Source of the DNA: an uncultured Lachnospiraceae bacterium
Lineage (GTDB): Bacteria > Bacillota > Clostridia > Lachnospirales > Lachnospiraceae
Direction of reading: 5' to 3'
Assembly: GCA_947644545.1 (NCBI GenBank)
Contig: CANRZW010000003.1
Location: 1-64,000 of the forward strand
Length of the DNA: 64,000 nucleotides
Made by a program: the position numbers and the translations under genes. This document shows, one piece after another, positions 8,504-30,316 of this stretch. Each line of letters starts with the position of its first letter. Positions within the stretch are counted from its first letter, which is position 1. The notes beneath the pieces were generated by a model. The model did not search any database. It was not told the DNA's origin and saw only the letters and a list, made by a program, of their open reading frames with translations.

Positions 8504-11500
8504 ATGGAGAGGACTATGAACGCGGTTTTCCGGGATATCTTCCGTGCGATCCATGAGGGAAAATGGATGAGCATCGAATACCACAACAGAGAAGATCAGA
8601 TCACGAAATACTGGATTGGCATCCGTGATCTGGACGTTCACAGCCGTACCCTTTCGGTGGACGGTCTTCATCTGCGGCAGTATACGGTAGAGTCTTATGA
8701 CAGGATCCGGATTGATGCTATCCAGTCCTCCAGAATCATAGAAGGCTCTTACTGCCCCGTCAATGAAAAGCTGGTTCAGGATATTTATTTAAATCCCCAC
8801 AAGTATACAGCGCTGTTTGACAACACTGCCAATTTAAAGATCCTCGGGTATCTGGAAATGTGCAACCGTCTGGACTGCGTGCCGTACAAGTCGGATTTCA
8901 GTCTGGTGCGCTATCTGGATCACGACACGATCAGAGGAGAGCTGTATCAGCTGAGTTCGGAGCAGTTCCGGGAGATCGTGAGGAATTTCCAGTACCAGTC
9001 GGAATCCGACGGGCGGGAGGATGGCCGGCTGCAGATTAGACAGCTGGCGATGAATGTCCTAAGCATTCATATGGCGAAAGGGCTGTACGTGCTGGCTTAC
9101 CGCAAGCTGCATCTGGACGTAAAGCAGCGGGCGCTAAAGCCGGAGGAAGAGATCACGATCTGCACGGAGTTTGGGATCAAAGAGGAGCGGGGACGGCGCC
9201 CTGTGGAGCTTGTGACCAAACAGAGCATCCGCCGGTTTCTGGACGGTGACGAGTATGAGCTGCTTGCGGATTTCGAGGCGAATCAGGAACGGATCAAGGA
9301 CTGTATCATGCGGCGGATGCCCAGGGGTAGCTGCAATGTGGACGACATGCCGTATATTATCGGGCTGGAAGCGGATATTGCGTTGGATCTGCATAAAGAA
9401 TATCAGGCCGTTATGAAGCTGTATCAGAAAAAGGAAGTGCCGGTGCCGATCCGGGCCTTTTTCGGAGATCTGCTGGAGCGGCCCAGAAGGACGGCGGCTT
9501 ATCCGATTGCGCTGATCAACCGGAACATCAATATGGATCAGCTGCTGGCAATCCACAACGCCATGAAGTATCCGGTAGCCTATATTCAGGGACCGCCGGG
9601 CACGGGGAAGACGAATACCATCATCAACACCATCGTGACGGCCTTTTTCAATGAGCGCACGGTGCTGTTTGCGTCTTACAACAACCATCCGATCAACGGC
9701 GTCTACGAGAAACTCTCCACCATAGAGTATAACGGAAAGACGATTCCCTTCCCGATCCTGCGGCTGGGCAACCAGGAGAAGGTGAAGGAGGCGCTTTTGA
9801 CGATCAGGCGGCTCTACCGGGAGGTACAGAACGTGAAGGTGTTCGAGGATACGCTGGACCGCAACAAGGATGACCGGAAGAAGCGGGCCAGACGGCTGTC
9901 GGAGCTGCTAAGACGGTATGAGGAGCTGCTGGATCTGCGGGAACGAGAGGAGACCATAGACCGGGTGCTGGAATATGAGGAGAAAAAGGGCGCTCTGCTG
10001 CAGACAATGGCTTTCGAGCAGGACTTGAAGGTCAGGCAGCGTGGACAGCTCCGCAGGAAGATCGAGGTCACGGGGGAGGTGTCGGAAGCGGAAGCGCTTT
10101 CCCTGCTGGATGATAATATAGAAGACCTGAAAAAGTACCTCTACTATATCTCGGCAGGCTATATCAAGAAGATCGGGCAACAAAAAAACGCCGACCTGCT
10201 GGAGATTCTGGAAATGGAGGAGGAAGGAAAGCAGCTGGAGGCTTTTGGCAGGTATCTGGGGAAAAAGGAGAATATCTTAAAGCTGCAGAAGATCTTTCCG
10301 ATCATCGCCACCACCTGTATCTCGGCCCATCGTCTCGGAGAGCCGGAGCCGATGTTTGATATGGTGATCATGGACGAGGCCAGCCAGTGTAATATTGCGG
10401 TTTCGCTGGTGCCTATCCTGCGGGGGACGAGCCTGATGCTGGTAGGCGACCCGCAGCAGCTCAATCCGGTGATTTTGCTGGATGAGCTGACCAACAATAA
10501 ACTGCGGAAGCGTTATACGGTGTCCGATGAATATGACTACCGGAAAAATTCCATCTATAAGACGTATCTGGCCTGTGACGCGGTCAGTGACGAGACGCTT
10601 TTGCACAACCATTACCGGTGTCATAAGAATATCATCGGGTTTAACAACCGTAAGTATTATCATTCCAAACTCAGTATCCTGTCCGAGAGCAGGGAAGAAC
10701 AGCCCCTTGTCTATCTGGATATGCAGGATACCTTCTCGGAGCTTAAGAATACGGCACCGGCGGAGGCCGGTGAGATTGCCAGATATGCCGCGCTGAACAG
10801 GGATAAAAATATCGGCGTCATTACGCCCTTTGTCAACCAGAAGAAGCTGATCGAGGAAGCGCTGGCCCGGGCGAAGGTGGATAATGTGACCTGCGGGACG
10901 GTTCATGCCTTTCAGGGCGACGAGAAAGACGTGATCCTATTTTCCACGGCGATCACGGAGCAGACCCAGGCGGGCACCTATGAGTGGCTGAAAAATAACA
11001 AAGAGCTGATCAATGTGGCAACGTCGCGGGCCAGAGACAAGCTGATCGTTCTTTCCAGCAGGCGGCATCTGGAACGTCTGCACCAGAAGGAAGGGGAAGA
11101 CGATCTGTATGAGCTGGCCCAGTATGTGTGGTCCAACGGAACCTCTGCGGTGACGCCCAAGCAGACGGCCTCCCGGGCGCTGGGCGTTAAGCCTTTCAGC
11201 AGCGCCACGGAGGAGGCTTTTCTGGAAAACCTGAATCATGTGCTGGGGAATATCTGGCTGACCCAGAGCCGCTATACGGTCCACAAGGAGGTGGCCATCG
11301 CCCATGTCTTTCAGGGGAACGAATGCTGTAATGACCTCTTTTATAACGGACGCTTTGACTTCGTGGTGTATGAGAAGCACGGGACGACGGAGCTGCCGAT
11401 CCTGGCCATCGAACTGGACGGCAAAGAGCATTTCGAGGACGAAATAGTGCAAAACCGCGACCGGAAGAAGAAGGCCATCTGCGACGAACATGACCTGCAG

Positions 11501-24057: not shown

Positions 24058-24537
24058 ATGGCAACAGAGAAAACAATACATCAATATCTCGGGGAAGCAG
24101 GTTTTGAGCCTGTTGAGGACAGGGCGATCATTGTGAAATATGCGCCTGGCGAGGCTTTAAGTGACAAACTGGCGAATTTCTTCAGTACGGAGTTCTTTGT
24201 CCTGCAAATGTGTAAAGAGGAACTGGTTCTGGTTCCGGTGAATGCCATGACTACCACACTGGTGAAGGATATATCTTTGCGGTTATCTTATTCTTCCATT
24301 CAATCCGTAGAAGTTGCGGAAGAAGGAATGAACTATGCGATTACGATCGTGACAGACAGTGATACGATACGTTTATTGACGCAGAAAAAGGAATTAAGCG
24401 AACTGCGCACTTCCGGGACACTGGCTACGGGACAGAGTTTTCTGAATATAGGGGCAATGGGAACGATGTTTACGAAATCCCTGAACTGGCACAGAAAAAA
24501 CATAGACGATACTTTGCAGACGCTGCAGAGCCTGTAA
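24058..24537 (+). CDS. Conserved-looking hypothetical protein, possible PH-like fold
   Basis: 159 residues, soluble, no signal peptide. I do not recognise the family. The predicted pattern is a run of beta-strands (FFVLQMCKEELVLVPVN, ISLRLSYSSIQSVEVAEEG, YAITIVTDSDTIRLLTQKK) followed by a C-terminal helix (LNWHRKNIDDTLQTLQSL). That order, seven strands then a helix, resembles bacterial PH domains, but this is only a visual impression. AGGAGG precedes the ATG. It is a single gene, convergent with the WYL pair. Confidence 0.7.
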   Translation: MATEKTIHQYLGEAGFEPVEDRAIIVKYAPGEALSDKLANFFSTEFFVLQMCKEELVLVPVNAMTTTLVKDISLRLSYSSIQSVEVAEEGMNYAITIVTDSDTIRLLTQKKELSELRTSGTLATGQSFLNIGAMGTMFTKSLNWHRKNIDDTLQTLQSL

Positions 24538-24597: not shown

Positions 24598-25551
24598 TCA
24601 CAGCGCAGCCTGCCGTCTGAGCCGTTCTTTGATCTGTTGCAGGAAAGCATCGTTGCCGAGCACTTTGATCATGGGACCAAAGGACAGGATCTCGATCAGA
24701 AGTTCGGTCTCCGTTTCCTTATTATAATATAGTAAGCACTCGTAGGTGTCGTCACTCACCCTGCGGGTGCTTTTCTCATAATTGGCAAATTGCAGCATGG
24801 CGCGTTCCAGTGCATTGCGGCGGTTTTTGATGAGGATGCGCACAGGTTCCTGATAGTAGGCGCGCTGCAAAAGCCGGTTTAAGTCCGGCGGCTGCCGGAC
24901 GGTTCTGGAAGTTAACATAACTTCACGTATGCGGCTCAGATTGAGGGTGATCACCTTCGGGCTTCGGCGAAGATCCACTGCCAGCAGACGGAAACAGTCG
25001 TTTTTCACGGAATATTCCAGACGGCACGGCAGATAGCTGTGATGCAGTCTGCGGTGGCAGCGCGATTCATAGAGGATATCCACACATACGTGATTCTGGA
25101 TTGCGGACAGGAGCGTCCGGAAGCGTTTCCTGTAGGCCGGATCCTGGTAATCGTCCCTGTAGGCAAAACGGTCATAGTAATAGAAATCGTCTGGCAGGTA
25201 AAGGGGTGGAACGTCGGCAAAGGCATGATGGATCGAGTCGATCTCTTCCTCATCCAGGAAAAGTCCGATCTTATCGTCCAGCAGGATCGCTCGAATGTAT
25301 GCTTTCTGCAAGTTGGTGAGAGGGACATAGAAGTCGGCGGACAGCCTTGTGTGCAGATAACCGTCCCGCTTCTCATAAAATCCCCACTCCTGCCGGGTCA
25401 GTCTGGGCAGCAGGTAGAGAACGCTTTCTGCAAAACAGGTGTCCTGGATGCGGGTCTTAAGTTCCTTCTCCGACAGGCAGGGGTTTTGGGTGACCAGGGA
25501 TTGAATCACCTGAAAATAGCAGTTATATATTTCTGAGAATAGTTCTGTCAT
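24598..25551 (-). CDS. WYL-domain regulator, second of a tandem pair
   Basis: About 317 residues. The middle of the protein (VCVDILYESRCHRRLHHSYLPCRLEYSVKND, cited here in part as HSYLPCRLEYSVKND) has the WYL layout: a strand with an (I/L)-Y motif, then a turn and the P-x-x-L-x-Y segment. The C-terminal segment (ELLIEILSFGPMIKVLGNDAFL) matches the WYL C-terminal extension. The start at 25551 has AGAAAGGAA and lies inside the end of the upstream WYL gene. Such proteins sense nucleic acids or nucleotides and regulate defence or repair genes. It lies divergent from the tRNA-like/DUF2828 unit. Confidence 0.8.
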   Translation of the reverse strand: MTELFSEIYNCYFQVIQSLVTQNPCLSEKELKTRIQDTCFAESVLYLLPRLTRQEWGFYEKRDGYLHTRLSADFYVPLTNLQKAYIRAILLDDKIGLFLDEEEIDSIHHAFADVPPLYLPDDFYYYDRFAYRDDYQDPAYRKRFRTLLSAIQNHVCVDILYESRCHRRLHHSYLPCRLEYSVKNDCFRLLAVDLRRSPKVITLNLSRIREVMLTSRTVRQPPDLNRLLQRAYYQEPVRILIKNRRNALERAMLQFANYEKSTRRVSDDTYECLLYYNKETETELLIEILSFGPMIKVLGNDAFLQQIKERLRRQAAL

Positions 25552-25570
25552 AAGTTCCTTTCTGTCCTTT

Positions 25571-26905
25571 TCAATCTTCATCCTTAAAATAGAGACGATA
25601 CGTCGTGAGAAGATCCCTCTGAAAACGTTCCTTAAGCAGCGGGCAGTCTGACTCTACAGAGACGATCCGTCCGATAAAAGTGCGGATCCACGGCAGCATC
25701 TCGTTGGCGTCAAACACGTCGATTTCATAGGTAAAAGTATCAGGTGCGGTTCGCCGGATGACGCCGCCTTTCCCCTCGCGTCGCAGCCGGTTCAGGATAT
25801 AGGCCTCGGCCCCTTCCCGGATATGGAGCGTCAGCTTCACATGTTCGATGCGCCGTCCGCTGCCTTTAAGGTGAAAGTCCCGGTTGTTCAGAGCATGGAG
25901 GGTCGTGCGGTCCGCCGGATGGCCGGATGTGCATGATGAGGGGGCGCTTTGAAAAGACACGCCCCAGGCAGATGCTTTGTGATTCTCCAGCTTTTCCCGG
26001 ATATTTATGTAGTCTGAACAGGGAGCGCCCGCCGTTACAGTCTTGACCGCATCCAGCCGAATGGCGGCAAAGCGCTTTTTGGACGGAAGATAGAGGCACA
26101 GATAGCGTCTGCCTGTGCGCGTGCTGATAAAGATTTTCAGCGGAATGCCTTCGGTGTCCAGAAAGCGGTCCGACTTCGTGCTTTTGACGTGCAAAAGGAC
26201 GGCCCTGTGTGCATGCATTGCCTGCAGGAGGGGCAGCAGCACTTCGTCCTCCAGCGTATGGACGAAGAAATTGTGTTTGATCCGGAACAGGTCGTTCTGG
26301 AAAGAGGCCGTGTCCATAATGGTGTGCCCGATCACGCCATGGGGTGAGAAAAGCTGATACAGCTTGATGGCGTTTTTCAGCCCGGGGTGTGCGCCAAGCA
26401 GTTCCTGAAAAGGCGGATTGAGCCGGTACAGCACTTCCTTGCCCTTTTTCTCTTTGACCAGCATACCTTCCGCGGCATACTGGTTGCATTTGCGGCGGAC
26501 GCTCTGGGGATCGAATATTTTACCGTAATCGGCAAGGAGACCGTCGGTGATCTCGTCGGCCGTGCGGTCGGGGGATTTTCGCAGATAGTCCAGGATATAG
26601 AAATGCAGCATGATATCGTTGTCCGTGAAACTTTTGGCTTTCCATACCCGATACAGCGGGTTGGTGTCGAGAAGGTTGCTGTCAATGGACAGATAGATAT
26701 TCTTGCCCTTCGCCGTTCCGCTGCCGGTGTACTCCTGCCTGACATAGCCGGACAGCCAGCTTTCCAGCCGGCGGCGTTCGTTATCGTAGGTGCGGCTGCT
26801 CCAGCCGCCGAATTCGTCGCGGGTCTTAAAACCGTACACGAAGAAGTCGCGGACGTATTCTCTGCTTTTGGCAAAGGATTTGATGAGTTCATGGAATTCT
26901 GACAT
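25571..26905 (-). CDS. WYL-domain regulator, first of a tandem pair
   Basis: 444 residues. An N-terminal winged-helix region (about 95-165, RTADEITDGLLADYG then VRRKCNQYAAEGMLVKEKKG) is followed by a WYL domain near 245-310 (AVLLHVKSTKSD, GIPLKIFISTRTGRRYLCLY). The C-terminal extension includes LTLHIREGAEAYILNRLR. Its end overlaps the next WYL gene. The 5' end faces the tRNA-like RNAs and DUF2828 gene across about 130 bp, so it is the likely regulator of that unit. Activation or repression cannot be told. Confidence 0.85.
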   Translation of the reverse strand: MSEFHELIKSFAKSREYVRDFFVYGFKTRDEFGGWSSRTYDNERRRLESWLSGYVRQEYTGSGTAKGKNIYLSIDSNLLDTNPLYRVWKAKSFTDNDIMLHFYILDYLRKSPDRTADEITDGLLADYGKIFDPQSVRRKCNQYAAEGMLVKEKKGKEVLYRLNPPFQELLGAHPGLKNAIKLYQLFSPHGVIGHTIMDTASFQNDLFRIKHNFFVHTLEDEVLLPLLQAMHAHRAVLLHVKSTKSDRFLDTEGIPLKIFISTRTGRRYLCLYLPSKKRFAAIRLDAVKTVTAGAPCSDYINIREKLENHKASAWGVSFQSAPSSCTSGHPADRTTLHALNNRDFHLKGSGRRIEHVKLTLHIREGAEAYILNRLRREGKGGVIRRTAPDTFTYEIDVFDANEMLPWIRTFIGRIVSVESDCPLLKERFQRDLLTTYRLYFKDED

Positions 26906-26989
26906 GGGATCACCGCCTGAGAGTGGAGTTATCAGTTTGCTTTATTGTACCACCTTCGCAACTTTTTTGAAATGATTCTTCTGCCGGAA

Positions 26990-26998
26990 TGCTATATT
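26990..26998 (+). promoter_or_regulatory. Candidate promoter for the tRNA-like RNAs
   Basis: Extended -10 TGCTATATT (26990-26998), with TTGAAA at 26967-26972 at a longer than usual 20-bp spacing. The predicted start would fall about 30 bases before the first tRNA-like RNA. No sigma-54 -24/-12 element is seen, unlike the RtcR-controlled RNA-repair operons. Confidence 0.45.
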
Positions 26999-27034
26999 CT
27001 GGTTACAGACAGAGGAAAACGATCCGGAGGGGGA

Positions 27035-27149
27035 CGCCGCAGTAGCTCAGTTGGTAGAGCGCGGAGAAATAAGTCTTGCAAAAGGCTTTCACAGCAATCC
27101 TGATCACCTTTTAAGTGCGTTGTCGCGGGTTCGACTCCCGCCTGGGCGA
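27035..27149 (+). ncRNA. tRNA-Lys(UUU)-like RNA with a 41-nt insert in the anticodon stem
   Basis: The acceptor strands CGCC-(G)-CAG (27035-27042, G39 bulged) and CTGGGCG (27142-27148) form 7 bp. TA at 27043-27044 and the D-arm GCTC AGTTGGTA GAGC (27045-27060) are canonical, as is the T-arm GCGGG TTCGACT CCCGC (27125-27141). The anticodon loop CTTTTAA (27108-27114) would read UUU. Its stem is C62 G63 / C105 A106 C107 against GTGCG (27115-27119), a perfect 5 bp, but 41 nt (27064-27104) are inserted between the second and third base. Without the insert the RNA is 74 nt, tRNA-sized. The insert contains hairpin AAGTCTT-GCAA-AAGGCTT. No CCA is encoded. It is probably a tRNA mimic akin to Y RNA, not a working tRNA. 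Confidence 0.8.
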
Positions 27150-27183
27150 ATGCCTTCGGATCTTTCCCGCGTCTGCAAAAAGC

Positions 27184-27271
27184 GCCTTACCGTGGAAAAA
27201 TAAGTCTTGCAAAAGACTTTCACAGCAATGCAAACTGGTTTATGCAGGTTCGAATCCTGCCCCGGTAAGGC
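27184..27271 (+). ncRNA. Second tRNA-like RNA: acceptor/T-arm minihelix with shared hairpin
   Basis: GCCTTACCG (27184-27192) and CGGTAAGGC (27263-27271) pair over 9 bp, extended after a bulged T by GG/CC. A canonical T-arm GCAGG TTCGAAT CCTGC lies at 27244-27260. There is no D-arm and no anticodon arm. Instead, 27194-27229 repeats the 36-nt segment of the first RNA (27063-27098) with two changes. It folds as AAGTCTT-GCAA-AAGACTT, where the first RNA has a G-U pair, then TCACAGCAAT. This shared part is probably the protein-binding module. Confidence 0.75.
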
Positions 27272-27330
27272 TGTTTGTGGTGGTTAGTAAAGCGTAAGAG
27301 AAAGAAAAAGAAGAGAAAGAGGAAACGGGC

Positions 27331-28845
27331 ATGAACTTTATGGACAGATTACACAGGGTGATAAATAACGAGAAAAAGTTGACGGAAAACGGCGCGCGCG
27401 GCTATGCTGCCACGGGCAGTGCACTGGTGGATCTGAATTTTGCGGCAGCGTCTTTAAGGAACAGGACGGCAGCGGAGATTGTCAGAGGGTTTATTCCGGC
27501 CTTCTATGAGGACAGAGTACTGGCGGTCAAGTGGCTGTTTTTCCTGCGGGATGTAAGGGGCGGCCTGGGGGAGCGGAGAAGTTTTCGTATTATCATCCGC
27601 TATCTGGCGGAAAGCGCGCCGGAACTGATAAGCGGTCTGATCGATTTGATGGCGGAGTACGGACGATACGACGATTTGTTGTGTTTGTTTGATACGCCGC
27701 TCGAGGAAGCGGCGCTGACGGCATTGATGCGGCAGCTGGAACAGGACGTTATAAACAGCGAGACGACAGGGAAGGTTTCCCTATGCGCGAAGTGGATGCC
27801 GGGCAACAATACGTCTTCCCCGGAATCCCGCCGGGACGCGGCAAAGCTGCAGCATTTCATGGGAATGACCGCGAAAGAGTACAGGAAGATGCTGTCCTCT
27901 CTGCGGGCGCATCTGAATGTGACGGAAGTGTATATGAGCGACAACCGCTGGAGCGAAATTGCGTATGCGGGGGTGGCTTCCAGGGCCAATGTGATTTACC
28001 GGAAGGCCTTTATGCTTCATGATCAGGAGCGGCGCGAAGCGTATCTGGAGGCGGTGCAGAATAACCGTGCGGCGATCCATGCAGACGTGTTGATGCCGCA
28101 TGAGATTGTGGCGCAGTATACGGTGCGTTCCGGGTGGAGACTGCAGACAGGCGCGGAAGATGCGACGCTGGAAGCCCTGTGGAAGAACCTGCCGGTGATG
28201 GAGACAGCGGCCGCAAATGTTCTCTGCGTGGTGGACGGCTCCGGCAGTATGCTGTGTCCGGTGGGCGACGGCAGTCTAACGGCGCTGCATGTTTCCAATG
28301 CGCTTGGCATCTACTTTGCGGAGCAGCTGCGCGGCGCATACCACGACAGGTTTATTACCTTTTCAGCCAGCCCGAAGTATGTGGATCTGTCGGCCTGCAG
28401 GACACTTCGGGAAAAGCTGGAACTGGCGCTTGCACACAGTGACTGTACCAATACGAATATAGAGGTGACTTTTGAACTGATCCTGCAGACGGCGGTGAGA
28501 GGCCGCCTGAGCCAGCAGGAACTTCCGGGGACGGTGCTTGTCATCTCGGATATGGAGTTTGATATGGCGGTAAGCGGCAACGGCAAAAGAACGCTTTTTG
28601 ATACGATCGGCAGACGCTTTGCGGCTCATGGCTACCGGATGCCGAAGCTGGTATTCTGGAATGTGAACAGCAGGACTAATGTGATTCCGGTGCGGGAGAA
28701 TGAACTGGGCGTGGGGCTGGTCAGCGGCTTTTCTGCCAATGTCTGCAATATGGTCCTTTCCAATGAGCTGGATCCTTACCAGTGCCTGAAAAAGGTGCTT
28801 GACGGGGAAAGATACAGAAGGGTGGAGGCGAGGCTGAATGCCTGA
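27331..28845 (+). CDS. DUF2828 (TROVE/vWA-like) protein
   Basis: 504 residues. The N-terminal LTENGARGYAATGSALVDL and the segment VKWLFFLRDVRGGLGERR are marks of DUF2828, an alpha-helical repeat region related to the TROVE domain of Ro60 that binds RNA. From about residue 295 a von Willebrand A domain follows with the metal-ion site DGSGS (302-306 region, in VVDGSGSM), a Thr-containing TNTNIEVTF and LVISDMEFDM. Ro60 binds Y RNAs and tRNA-like RNAs; the two tRNA-like RNAs directly upstream on the same strand are the natural partners. It lies divergent from two WYL regulators. A purine-rich tract with GAGGAAA precedes the ATG. Confidence 0.88.
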   Translation: MNFMDRLHRVINNEKKLTENGARGYAATGSALVDLNFAAASLRNRTAAEIVRGFIPAFYEDRVLAVKWLFFLRDVRGGLGERRSFRIIIRYLAESAPELISGLIDLMAEYGRYDDLLCLFDTPLEEAALTALMRQLEQDVINSETTGKVSLCAKWMPGNNTSSPESRRDAAKLQHFMGMTAKEYRKMLSSLRAHLNVTEVYMSDNRWSEIAYAGVASRANVIYRKAFMLHDQERREAYLEAVQNNRAAIHADVLMPHEIVAQYTVRSGWRLQTGAEDATLEALWKNLPVMETAAANVLCVVDGSGSMLCPVGDGSLTALHVSNALGIYFAEQLRGAYHDRFITFSASPKYVDLSACRTLREKLELALAHSDCTNTNIEVTFELILQTAVRGRLSQQELPGTVLVISDMEFDMAVSGNGKRTLFDTIGRRFAAHGYRMPKLVFWNVNSRTNVIPVRENELGVGLVSGFSANVCNMVLSNELDPYQCLKKVLDGERYRRVEARLNA

Positions 28846-29119: not shown

Positions 29120-30316
29120 TCAGCTCATTTTCTGCCTGCTCTGCAGCATCTGTTTTTTCATCTTCTTCAGGAAATCCAACGAAAACGGCAGATACGTCTC
29201 CAGCGCCTTCAAATATTCTCTGGAAAAGAACTGCTGATTCGCGGCGGCGGTCAGGAGGGAGATTTCCACACAGTGTTTCAGGACAAAGCCTTTCAGTCCG
29301 GGATTGACCGGCTCGAAATCCCGGATCACGTGCCAGGAGAACCAAAGCAGGCGGTTGGTGTATTGTTCTAACTGCTGTCGGCTTTCGGCCCCCGTCATCA
29401 GCGTTTGACTTCCTGCGTTCCTGTCTTCTTCGATATCCTGCAGATCGTCCACCAGCTGTAAAAGAAAACCGAATTTCAGATAGAAGTTCTCTTCATATTC
29501 CCGCCAGTCCGTGGCGGCAAAAAGGTAATCCGCCAATACGGAGGTACTCCCTTTGCGGATGGAAATTTCCAGGATCTGAGCTTCCGTCAGCGGGGTTTTC
29601 TGCTGCCGGATACTGTTATTCTGGGCTTCCAGAAGCGTCAGCAGTGTTTTCGTGATCTTCTTTCTGGCAGAACCCTCATATGCCGTCAGGATCATATCCA
29701 AAAGCCGGCAGGTCTTTTCTTCCAGCGCATTGTGCGGCGTGACGGTCTCGTCTCTTAATTTGGAGGCAATCATCCGGTTGTACCGCTCTTTGTCCTGCCG
29801 GGTGATCCTGGCGTCGTCAATATAATTGTCGGTATAGGGATAGAGCAGGCTGTATGCCAGAATCGGATCCCCGGCATGCTGTTCCTTTCCCTGCATATCC
29901 AGTATCATGGCATAGATAAAATAGTTGCGCAGAGTCTGCCAGATCTGTGCCGGACGCAGGGATTCGTCGAAGGCTCTAACGCTGTTTGTAAAGTGCTTTG
30001 CCTCATGTTTGAAGGCTTCCAGCTGTTGGCGCTCCATCCAGTCATAGAGCGAGAGGATTTTTTCCTTTTCCAGAAGTTCCATGAGATCCGTTTCCAGTTC
30101 CTGTTCCAGTGCATCCTGCGCTGCTTTGTCTTTCGGTTTCTGGCGCAGCTTCTTTTGCATTTTCTGGGAAAAATCCTGTACAAGCGCTTCATTTTCTTTT
30201 TTCTGTGCCGGTGTTATGTGCGGAAAGAGGTCGGCGTTTTCTGCCAGAAAATCCGGAAAACAATCCGGCTGCGCTTCCCATACTGCTTTGATCGCCTGTG
30301 TCTGTAATTGTTTCAT
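29120..30316 (-). CDS. Class I isoprenoid-synthase-like protein
   Basis: 398 residues, all-helical, no signal peptide. Two acidic clusters suit class I trans-isoprenoid synthase folds that bind Mg2+-diphosphate: YPYTDNYIDDAR near residue 160 (D-x3-DD) and LLQLVDDLQDIEEDRN near 285 (DD-x2-D-x3-D). The N-terminal 100 residues are charged and Lys/Glu/Gln-rich, unlike ordinary prenyltransferases. It could be a squalene/phytoene synthase-like enzyme or a non-catalytic relative. No other isoprenoid gene is near. An extended -10 (TGCTATAAT on the minus strand, -10 at 30443-30438) lies about 120 bases upstream. Confidence 0.65.
   Translation of the reverse strand: MKQLQTQAIKAVWEAQPDCFPDFLAENADLFPHITPAQKKENEALVQDFSQKMQKKLRQKPKDKAAQDALEQELETDLMELLEKEKILSLYDWMERQQLEAFKHEAKHFTNSVRAFDESLRPAQIWQTLRNYFIYAMILDMQGKEQHAGDPILAYSLLYPYTDNYIDDARITRQDKERYNRMIASKLRDETVTPHNALEEKTCRLLDMILTAYEGSARKKITKTLLTLLEAQNNSIRQQKTPLTEAQILEISIRKGSTSVLADYLFAATDWREYEENFYLKFGFLLQLVDDLQDIEEDRNAGSQTLMTGAESRQQLEQYTNRLLWFSWHVIRDFEPVNPGLKGFVLKHCVEISLLTAAANQQFFSREYLKALETYLPFSLDFLKKMKKQMLQSRQKMS

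Follow-up and report, generated by a model that had tools for sequence, protein, structure and literature searches.

A conserved RNA module beside DUF2828 genes of bacteria and phages points to a probable divergent Ro60/Y-RNA-type ribonucleoprotein

The window analyzed here is a stretch of 64,000 nucleotides (nt), positions 1 to 64,000 of contig CANRZW010000003.1 (assembly GCA_947644545.1), from an uncultured Lachnospiraceae bacterium. At positions 24598-28845 it carries a cassette in which a pair of WYL regulator genes on the minus strand faces two tRNA-like RNAs on the plus strand, followed by the gene of a DUF2828 protein. The open reading frames of WYL-B (327 amino acids, 24598..25581) and WYL-A (444 amino acids, 25571..26905) had been described as overlapping and facing the RNAs and DUF2828, and this arrangement was confirmed, with an overlap of 11 nt. 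Upstream of the RNAs lies a conserved putative operator of 22 bases, TTCGCAACTTTTTTGAAATGAT (26955..26976, plus strand). RNA1 occupies 27035..27149, RNA2 27184..27271, and the DUF2828 gene 27331..28845, all on the plus strand. The cassette of WYL pair, tRNA-like RNAs, and DUF2828 in the window is genuine.

The DUF2828 protein matched Pfam family PF11443 (E 9.2e-33) and, in its DUF7788/vWA part, PF25043 (E 8.4e-39). The original prediction had assigned it a TROVE-like part and a vWA part with a DGSGS metal site. Across an alignment of 37 proteins (A2: the window protein and 36 picked from 160 fetched loci), the metal-site residues D302, S304, S306, T375, and D407 were invariant. An AlphaFold2 model made with 37 sequences (predicted local distance difference test 83, predicted template-modelling score 0.77) consisted of N-terminal helices and a vWA domain. 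When this model was compared with the PDB by Foldseek, 11 of 11 matches at E ≤ 1e-3 were Ro60/TROVE chains (4.4e-8 to 5.4e-5), including 9kop, 9l5y (Ro60 of Thermus phage phiLo), 2nvo (Rsr), 1yvr, 2i91, 1yvp, 9nf8, 9nep, and 9nfa. We call this structural match distant because the template-modelling (TM) score by query length was only 0.34-0.55. The top two PDB profile matches by sequence were also TROVE, though weak (E 0.27), and the TROVE sequence family PF05731 was matched neither by the window protein nor by anything else in the genome. PHROG 850, 'RNA-binding protein', matched DUF2828 with E 1.5e-122, and some phage records label the family 'Ro-like'. We concluded that DUF2828 is Ro60-like by predicted fold. 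In Ro60/TROVE proteins, Y RNA is bound on the outside and misfolded RNA ends are held in the central hole. Some of the predicted viral structures sharing the fold are DUF2828 proteins from giant viruses; among giant viruses, predicted proteins of Pithovirus LCPAC304, Marseillevirus LCMAC202, and Cafeteria roenbergensis virus have the fold, with TM up to 0.79.

The two RNAs had both been called tRNA-like. RNA1 (27036-27148 in the search) passed the Rfam tRNA model with 32.8 bits and has 56 nt where the model has 15, so that Rfam reads it as a tRNA carrying a large insert. Its order is acceptor, D arm, core hairpin, anticodon-like arm, T arm, and acceptor. The core hairpin belongs to a module, AAGTCTT-GCAA-AAGGCTT-TC-ACAGCAA (27071..27097), and the anticodon-like hairpin, CAC CTTTTAA GTG (27105..27117), is of the Lys UUU type. 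RNA2 (27188-27268) stayed below the Rfam tRNA threshold (16.7 versus 29 bits), and ARAGORN found 0 tRNAs in the window, detecting neither RNA. RNA2 has a 9-base-pair (bp) acceptor-like stem, the core hairpin with its module AAGTCTT-GCAA-AAGACTT-TC-ACAGCAA (27202..27228), and a T arm, without D arm or anticodon arm, and its fold is unusually stable (z -4.79). Both RNAs hold AAGTCTTGCAAAAG[A/G]CTTTCACAGCAAT, and a search of all 4.07 Mb of the assembly with an exact pattern for this hairpin gave two copies, those in RNA1 and RNA2.

Comparison with the closest relatives, loci L033 and L034, showed that RNA1 is 89-90% and RNA2 93% identical, while the spacer between them is 65-68% and the leader after them 51-59% identical. 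The order was unchanged, with lower values, in L035 and L041. RNA1 minus its core was aligned with 39 unique tRNAs of its own genome (from 30 fetched loci of 41 Rfam matches); the best match was tRNA-Lys(ttt) with a score of 75.0, and the next isotype was Gly(gcc) with 69.5. RNA2 had no good match in this set (best score 30.5). Relatives of RNA1 retain the frame with triplets of the Asp, Ile, Leu, or Gly type.

The module is built on a helix of 7 bp. Its 5' strand, most often AAGRYRC, leads through two unpaired bases into ACAGCAA, and a G comes directly after its 3' strand. DUF2828 was found in 30 of 299 genomes of the same family, the window genome included, and most of the 5' regions of DUF2828 in these genomes carry the module. 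Alignment A1 contains the window and 23 other loci from the 30 genomes, leaving out five loci with an internal stop and L009 with a run of N; alignment A5 contains 61 of 77 listed RNAs. When bare ACAGCAA was counted in the 1 kb 5' of DUF2828 without demanding pairing, 355 copies were sense and 10 antisense. The partner 7-bp strand followed by G was present at 244 of 354 sense copies versus 7 of 163 copies on antisense strands.

We then took a census of loci for which 500 nt or more of 5' sequence was available, including 80 named bacterial loci, 80 loci from IMG/VR, and three named phages. Of 104 bacterial loci, 97 had the module no more than 1.5 kb from DUF2828, as did 63 of the 83 viral loci, against 6 and 2 for the antisense strand; 394 module RNAs were counted in all, versus 8 antisense. 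Removing duplicate loci (for example L041 = L004, L058 = L008, L085 = L012, L075 = L010, and near-identical viral contigs) left the module at 92 of 99 loci in bacteria and 57 of 76 in viruses, and the RNA counts in the insert and anticodon statistics below were made non-redundant. This census sets no demand on the end bases; an earlier rule of T then A/T had missed stems closed by C-G. The original prediction depended on homologous DUF2828 loci having a conserved RNA beside them, and the census found one at most of the relatives examined. Covariation of the core helix (7 of 7 pairs) was not used as evidence, because the RNAs had been selected for pairing and the argument would be circular.

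Named phages were scanned over 3-4 kb on each side of DUF2828, less at record ends. Module RNAs were found in Listeria phage AG20, Enterococcus phage EFDG1, Mycobacterium phages Aegeus and Krypton555, the Felix O1-like phage warpig, Campylobacter phage F372, Bacillus phage FADO, Sinorhizobium phage phiM12, Aeromonas phage AsFcp_2, and Staphylococcus phage SEP9.

The RNAs occur in two forms. The hairpin form, found in the window, L096, L045, and other loci, begins with the 5' side of the acceptor and continues through D arm, module, anticodon arm, and T arm to the 3' side of the acceptor, and the module inside reads 3' strand, G, loop, 5' strand, and ACAGCAA. In the enclosing form, the 5' strand with ACAGCAA stands first, followed by anticodon arm, T arm, acceptor, loop, acceptor, and D arm, and the 3' strand with G stands last; some RNAs of this form hold only part of the full arm order. 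The two forms are circular permutations about a constant module. The acceptor of the hairpin form was examined in 49 RNAs with D and T arms. Pairing per position was 80-94% with 3-6 pair types, and fell to 10-76% when the same acceptor was slid by one or two positions. The D stem was perfect in 46 of the 49. Circularly permuted tRNA genes and permuted tmRNA are known, and share with these RNAs an arm order altered by moved ends. The DUF2828 RNA family differs from them in that both orders coexist, with the module helix as the fixed point.

A covariance model of the enclosing form (R1) matched 20 of the 299 family genomes, namely 18 of the 30 with DUF2828 and 2 of the 269 without, where at least six of the 18 positive genomes had supplied a training sequence. 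R1 misses the window RNAs because it models the enclosing form only. The two matches in genomes without detected DUF2828, G135:C22:10892-10990 (E 0.0018) and G193:C65:3601-3664 (E 0.0096), are either orphan RNAs or chance.

Mimicry of the anticodon arm was counted against shuffled sequences. A first count was discarded as too high: it had picked up T loops, since these too are 7 nt long with a U at the second position. In the strict count, which excludes T-loop patterns and demands a 5-bp stem and a 7-nt loop with U33 and R37, 80 of 348 RNAs were positive versus 9.3 ± 3.2 in shuffles (maximum of 20 shuffles, 16). Allowing 4-bp stems gave 110 anticodon hairpins versus 26.6 ± 6.0. After T arms were removed, hairpins of 5 bp with a 7-nt loop were present in 133 of 357 inserts, with 49.8 ± 5.4 in shuffles (maximum of 40, 61). 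Loops of 5, 6, 9, and 10 nt showed a smaller excess, and loops of 4, 8, and 11 nt none. U33 together with R37 occurred 87 times versus 9.6 in shuffles, with about six of 84 listed hairpins still resembling T loops. Among the 110 mimics, the commonest triplets were UUU (19), GUC (8), GUU (8), and UGG (6). T arms were recognized in 112 of the 348 RNAs, and D arms also occur; tRNA parts (anticodon, T, and D arms) are attached to the module more often than expected by chance. In 11 hand-picked sequences of the RNA1 clade, leaving out L039 (without hairpin) and further L096 copies, the anticodon triplet was at least as variable as any position in the otherwise conserved frame.

The regulators and neighbors of DUF2828 were surveyed in the same loci. 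WYL-A and WYL-B matched no Pfam family at E ≤ 0.1, and both were matched by PADLOC WYL profiles (WYL-B 1.3e-11, WYL-A 2e-5). In an alignment of WYL-B relatives, Pfam WYL was found in 6 of 10 members (best 2.9e-5) and WCX in 4 of 10; in that of WYL-A, Pfam WYL was found in 5 of 12 (best 1.6e-6). WYL neighbors are not a general feature of DUF2828 loci: tblastn found WYL homologs in at least 24 of 110 bacterial loci, a lower bound as many loci end early, and none were found in the viral loci. Two more WYL genes were added by Pfam, and without duplicates the tblastn count was 23 of 105. Allowing up to 3 substitutions, 27 of 109 bacterial loci have the 22-base motif of the putative operator on the 5' side of their RNAs, always sense and 0 antisense. 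The motif was present in 21 of 24 WYL loci and 0 of 83 viral loci (without duplicates, 25 of 105 bacterial and 20 of 23 WYL loci), and in L106 it additionally precedes the WYL genes.

RNA-repair genes were also found near DUF2828. Among bacterial loci with at least 800 nt of 3' sequence, RtcB follows DUF2828 on the same strand, starting -100 to 300 nt 3', in 18 of 103 (18 of 99 without duplicates), including the closest relatives L033 and L034. Two genes tested gave Pfam RtcB E values of 3.5e-113 and 5.5e-55, and eight WYL loci also carry RtcB. Within the same distance no RtcB was found in 79 viral loci; Listeria phage AG20 has an annotated tRNA-splicing ligase 1.2 kb 3' of DUF2828. In L106, an RlaP gene (Pfam E 2.5e-53) lies 3' of DUF2828 in the same direction, and RlaP is predicted to restore lost nucleotides ahead of RNA ligation (PMC7824862). 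At L103 (Butyrivibrio sp. MB2005), which has a divergent WYL gene and RNAs on both the 5' and the 3' side of DUF2828, an AlkZ-related gene (8875-10041, Pfam E 1.3e-88) comes after RtcB downstream of DUF2828.

Taken together, DUF2828 and its RNAs are probably a divergent Ro60/Y-RNA-type ribonucleoprotein of an RNA-damage (tRNA-repair) operon. In such an operon, the WYL proteins would repress the divergent promoters and release them upon binding an RNA-damage ligand. DUF2828 would bind the helix-plus-ACAGCAA module wherever the RNA backbone is opened, and the displayed tRNA parts might serve as decoys that keep anticodon nucleases or similar enzymes occupied, or might tether an enzyme of repair or decay. 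RtcB, where present, would reseal the cut tRNAs; the window copy either lost RtcB or never had it. The Salmonella rtc operon is described as regulated by damaged tRNAs, and its authors raise the idea that the tRNA-like part of YrlA could competitively inhibit an anticodon nuclease (PMC7790460).

Several observations weigh against this interpretation. Searches gave no RNAs at 7 of the 104 bacterial loci and 20 of the 83 viral ones, among which L057, L029, and L030 have near-variants of the module. By the scan, 3 of 13 named phages (Vibrio phi-ST2, Xanthomonas XbC2, and Fusobacterium Fnu1) have no RNA; the region of phi-ST2 contains six sense and zero antisense ACAGCAA. In Listeria phage CKA15 (L196), for which RNA-seq exists, the top-transcribed non-coding region (26,236-26,727) contains no ACAGCA, and the positions of the module RNAs are about 25,290-25,555. 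WYL genes are missing from most DUF2828 loci, and RtcB was found neither in the window or its assembly (95% complete) nor in most loci. The PrrC-type family PF13166, the sole anticodon-nuclease family sought, was not over the cut-off in the genome. The fold of RNA1 had a z of 0.12, with 108 of 200 shuffles folding equally well, and the case for RNA1 therefore rests on comparison. Its anticodon-like stem has 3 bp, which places it outside the 4- and 5-bp statistics. Finally, 147 of the 348 RNAs have no recognizable T arm, D arm, or anticodon hairpin, so tRNA mimicry is a property of the RNA family and not of each member.

As to what the tRNA parts do, the decoy step is put forward tentatively. 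A more far-reaching reading is that the tRNA parts are exchangeable baits: helix and ACAGCAA would form an unchanging handle, recognized in both permuted forms and seated on the Ro60-like ring, and interchangeable anticodon arms would be traded by bacteria and phages against whatever anticodon nuclease is encountered. Such a display is conceivable, and we would not call it likely. We nevertheless favor a ribonucleoprotein with decoy function slightly over a pure tether, because the family carries anticodon arms, which makes the YrlA-inhibitor idea of the Salmonella authors more direct. The tether, itself rather doubtful, would follow the style of Y RNAs, with the tRNA-like part bringing an enzyme such as PNPase to DUF2828, in the way that YrlA serves Rsr, and with the anticodon arms as leftovers of tRNA ancestry. 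It gains from the T arms counted above and from the long permuted RNAs, which share the YrlA order of T arm, acceptor, and D arm; in YrlA, the tRNA-like domain is reported to bind PNPase and the basal stem Rsr (PMC8394870). It does not account for 76 enclosing-form RNAs that have an anticodon-type hairpin (at least 4 bp) without T or D arm, a count to be read with the caveat that about a quarter of all 4-bp cases are chance by the shuffles (110 versus 26.6). Leftovers also leave unexplained why the triplet should vary in the conserved frame of the 11 RNA1-clade sequences.

Less likely than either, the WYL pair would steer a phage-defense response with the ribonucleoprotein as its effector, not as a repair device. 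WYL regulators are predicted ligand sensors of defense systems (PMC4012209), and the DUF2828 protein was found in 682 of 50,697 phage records, from which it would matter in phage-host conflict. The RtcB and RlaP neighbors, however, point to RNA repair, and no PADLOC model matched DUF2828 at E ≤ 0.1.

We regard it as still more improbable that the RNAs are leaders controlling DUF2828 in cis, for example by binding its product or reading tRNA status. This would suit the 235 of 282 RNAs outside the gene that lie 5' of DUF2828, and an operator that, where present, precedes the RNAs. The other 47 lie 3' of the gene, so the RNAs are not leaders only; moreover, some loci have 3 to 7 copies, and phage warpig has two copies 3' of the gene between tRNA genes. 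It is very improbable that the RNAs are just tRNA genes of phage type, intact or in decay, into which an element was inserted and which have no connection to DUF2828: hairpin forms do score as Rfam tRNAs (up to 51 bits) and the copies in phages are located within tRNA arrays or close to them, but R1 matches follow DUF2828 across genomes, the only two hairpin-form copies of the window genome are both at the cassette, and many RNAs keep the module without any tRNA part.

The favored ribonucleoprotein resembles Ro60/Rsr with YrlA, as in Salmonella rsr-yrlBA-rtcBA and in Rsr-YrlA-PNPase, in its Ro60 fold (predicted here), its neighboring tRNA-like RNAs, and, in some DUF2828 relatives, a co-oriented rtcB gene. 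It differs in that DUF2828 has no TROVE match and that the putative binding module is a helix with ACAGCAA and G. Its RNAs have anticodon-arm mimics, two permuted topologies, and several copies per locus, and WYL genes and an operator stand where Salmonella has RtcR. The likeness to Y RNAs that had been proposed held in part. A long permuted phage RNA (L203) matched positions 24-84 of 114 of the Rfam YrlA model RF02553, the tRNA-like half, with 38.3 bits, below the gathering threshold of 69, whereas the Ro-binding stem (positions 1-23 and 85-114) was unmatched. The window RNAs did not match RF02553 at E ≤ 5. Membership in YrlA from sub-threshold scores was dropped, because 191 of the 299 genomes examined from the phylum give such matches, which are therefore unsafe; some of them are limited to the tRNA-like half and are perhaps adjacent tRNA genes.

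Phages encode tRNAs that replace cleaved host tRNAs. The module RNAs are like them in being tRNA sequence carried by phages, with UUU (Lys) the commonest triplet among the mimics. They differ in that the module breaks up the tRNA, separating its D arm from its anticodon arm, or that only an anticodon hairpin is present, and we do not expect them to be used in translation.

The phage 'Ro-like RNA binding protein', PHROG 850, and Listeria CKA15_055 are the same protein family as DUF2828, and the Ro likeness of the phage protein is already in print. The authors on CKA15 propose that the phage has an Rsr protein and that its highly transcribed non-coding regions include Y RNAs; as far as the available text goes, that account defines no RNA structure or motif and gives no coordinates for two further highly transcribed regions, and the one region it gives with coordinates has no module (PMC12282133). 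A link of the module to this most transcribed region was dropped for that reason, and the region is some other abundant RNA. At 40 min, the two main open reading frame labels of this region account for about 67% of the transcripts from the phage (PMC12282133). A Ro60-related protein, which may or may not be DUF2828, is also reported in Vibrio phage pir03 (PMC7765460). In the literature searched, we came across neither the ACAGCAA module nor its permuted forms nor its mimicry of anticodon arms at DUF2828 loci, and we did not find the arrangement of WYL, operator, and RtcB around DUF2828, part of which papers on RNA-repair operons and bacterial Y RNAs may cover.

If true, the widespread DUF2828 family of phages and bacteria gains an RNA partner with a recognizable signature, and the Ro60/Y-RNA kind extends to a class of RNA bearing anticodon arms. 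The role of bacterial Ro-like particles would become directly testable, because many of the RNAs reveal which tRNA they imitate and the RtcB and RlaP neighbors point to tRNA damage. That many gut bacteria and phages have a distant Ro60 relative beside small RNAs often resembling tRNAs, in some cases including the anticodon, suggests a particle that handles or shields tRNAs while they are being cut.

Minor features of the cassette were noted as well. The flanking genes at 24058-24537 (plus strand) and 29120-30316 (minus strand) had no Pfam family above the cut-off. A scan of 26900-27340 gave neither a promoter-like site on the plus strand nor a terminator-like site. On the minus strand, a consensus scan found one promoter-like site for the WYL genes (26944..26971; shuffle mean 0.3), which overlaps the putative operator.

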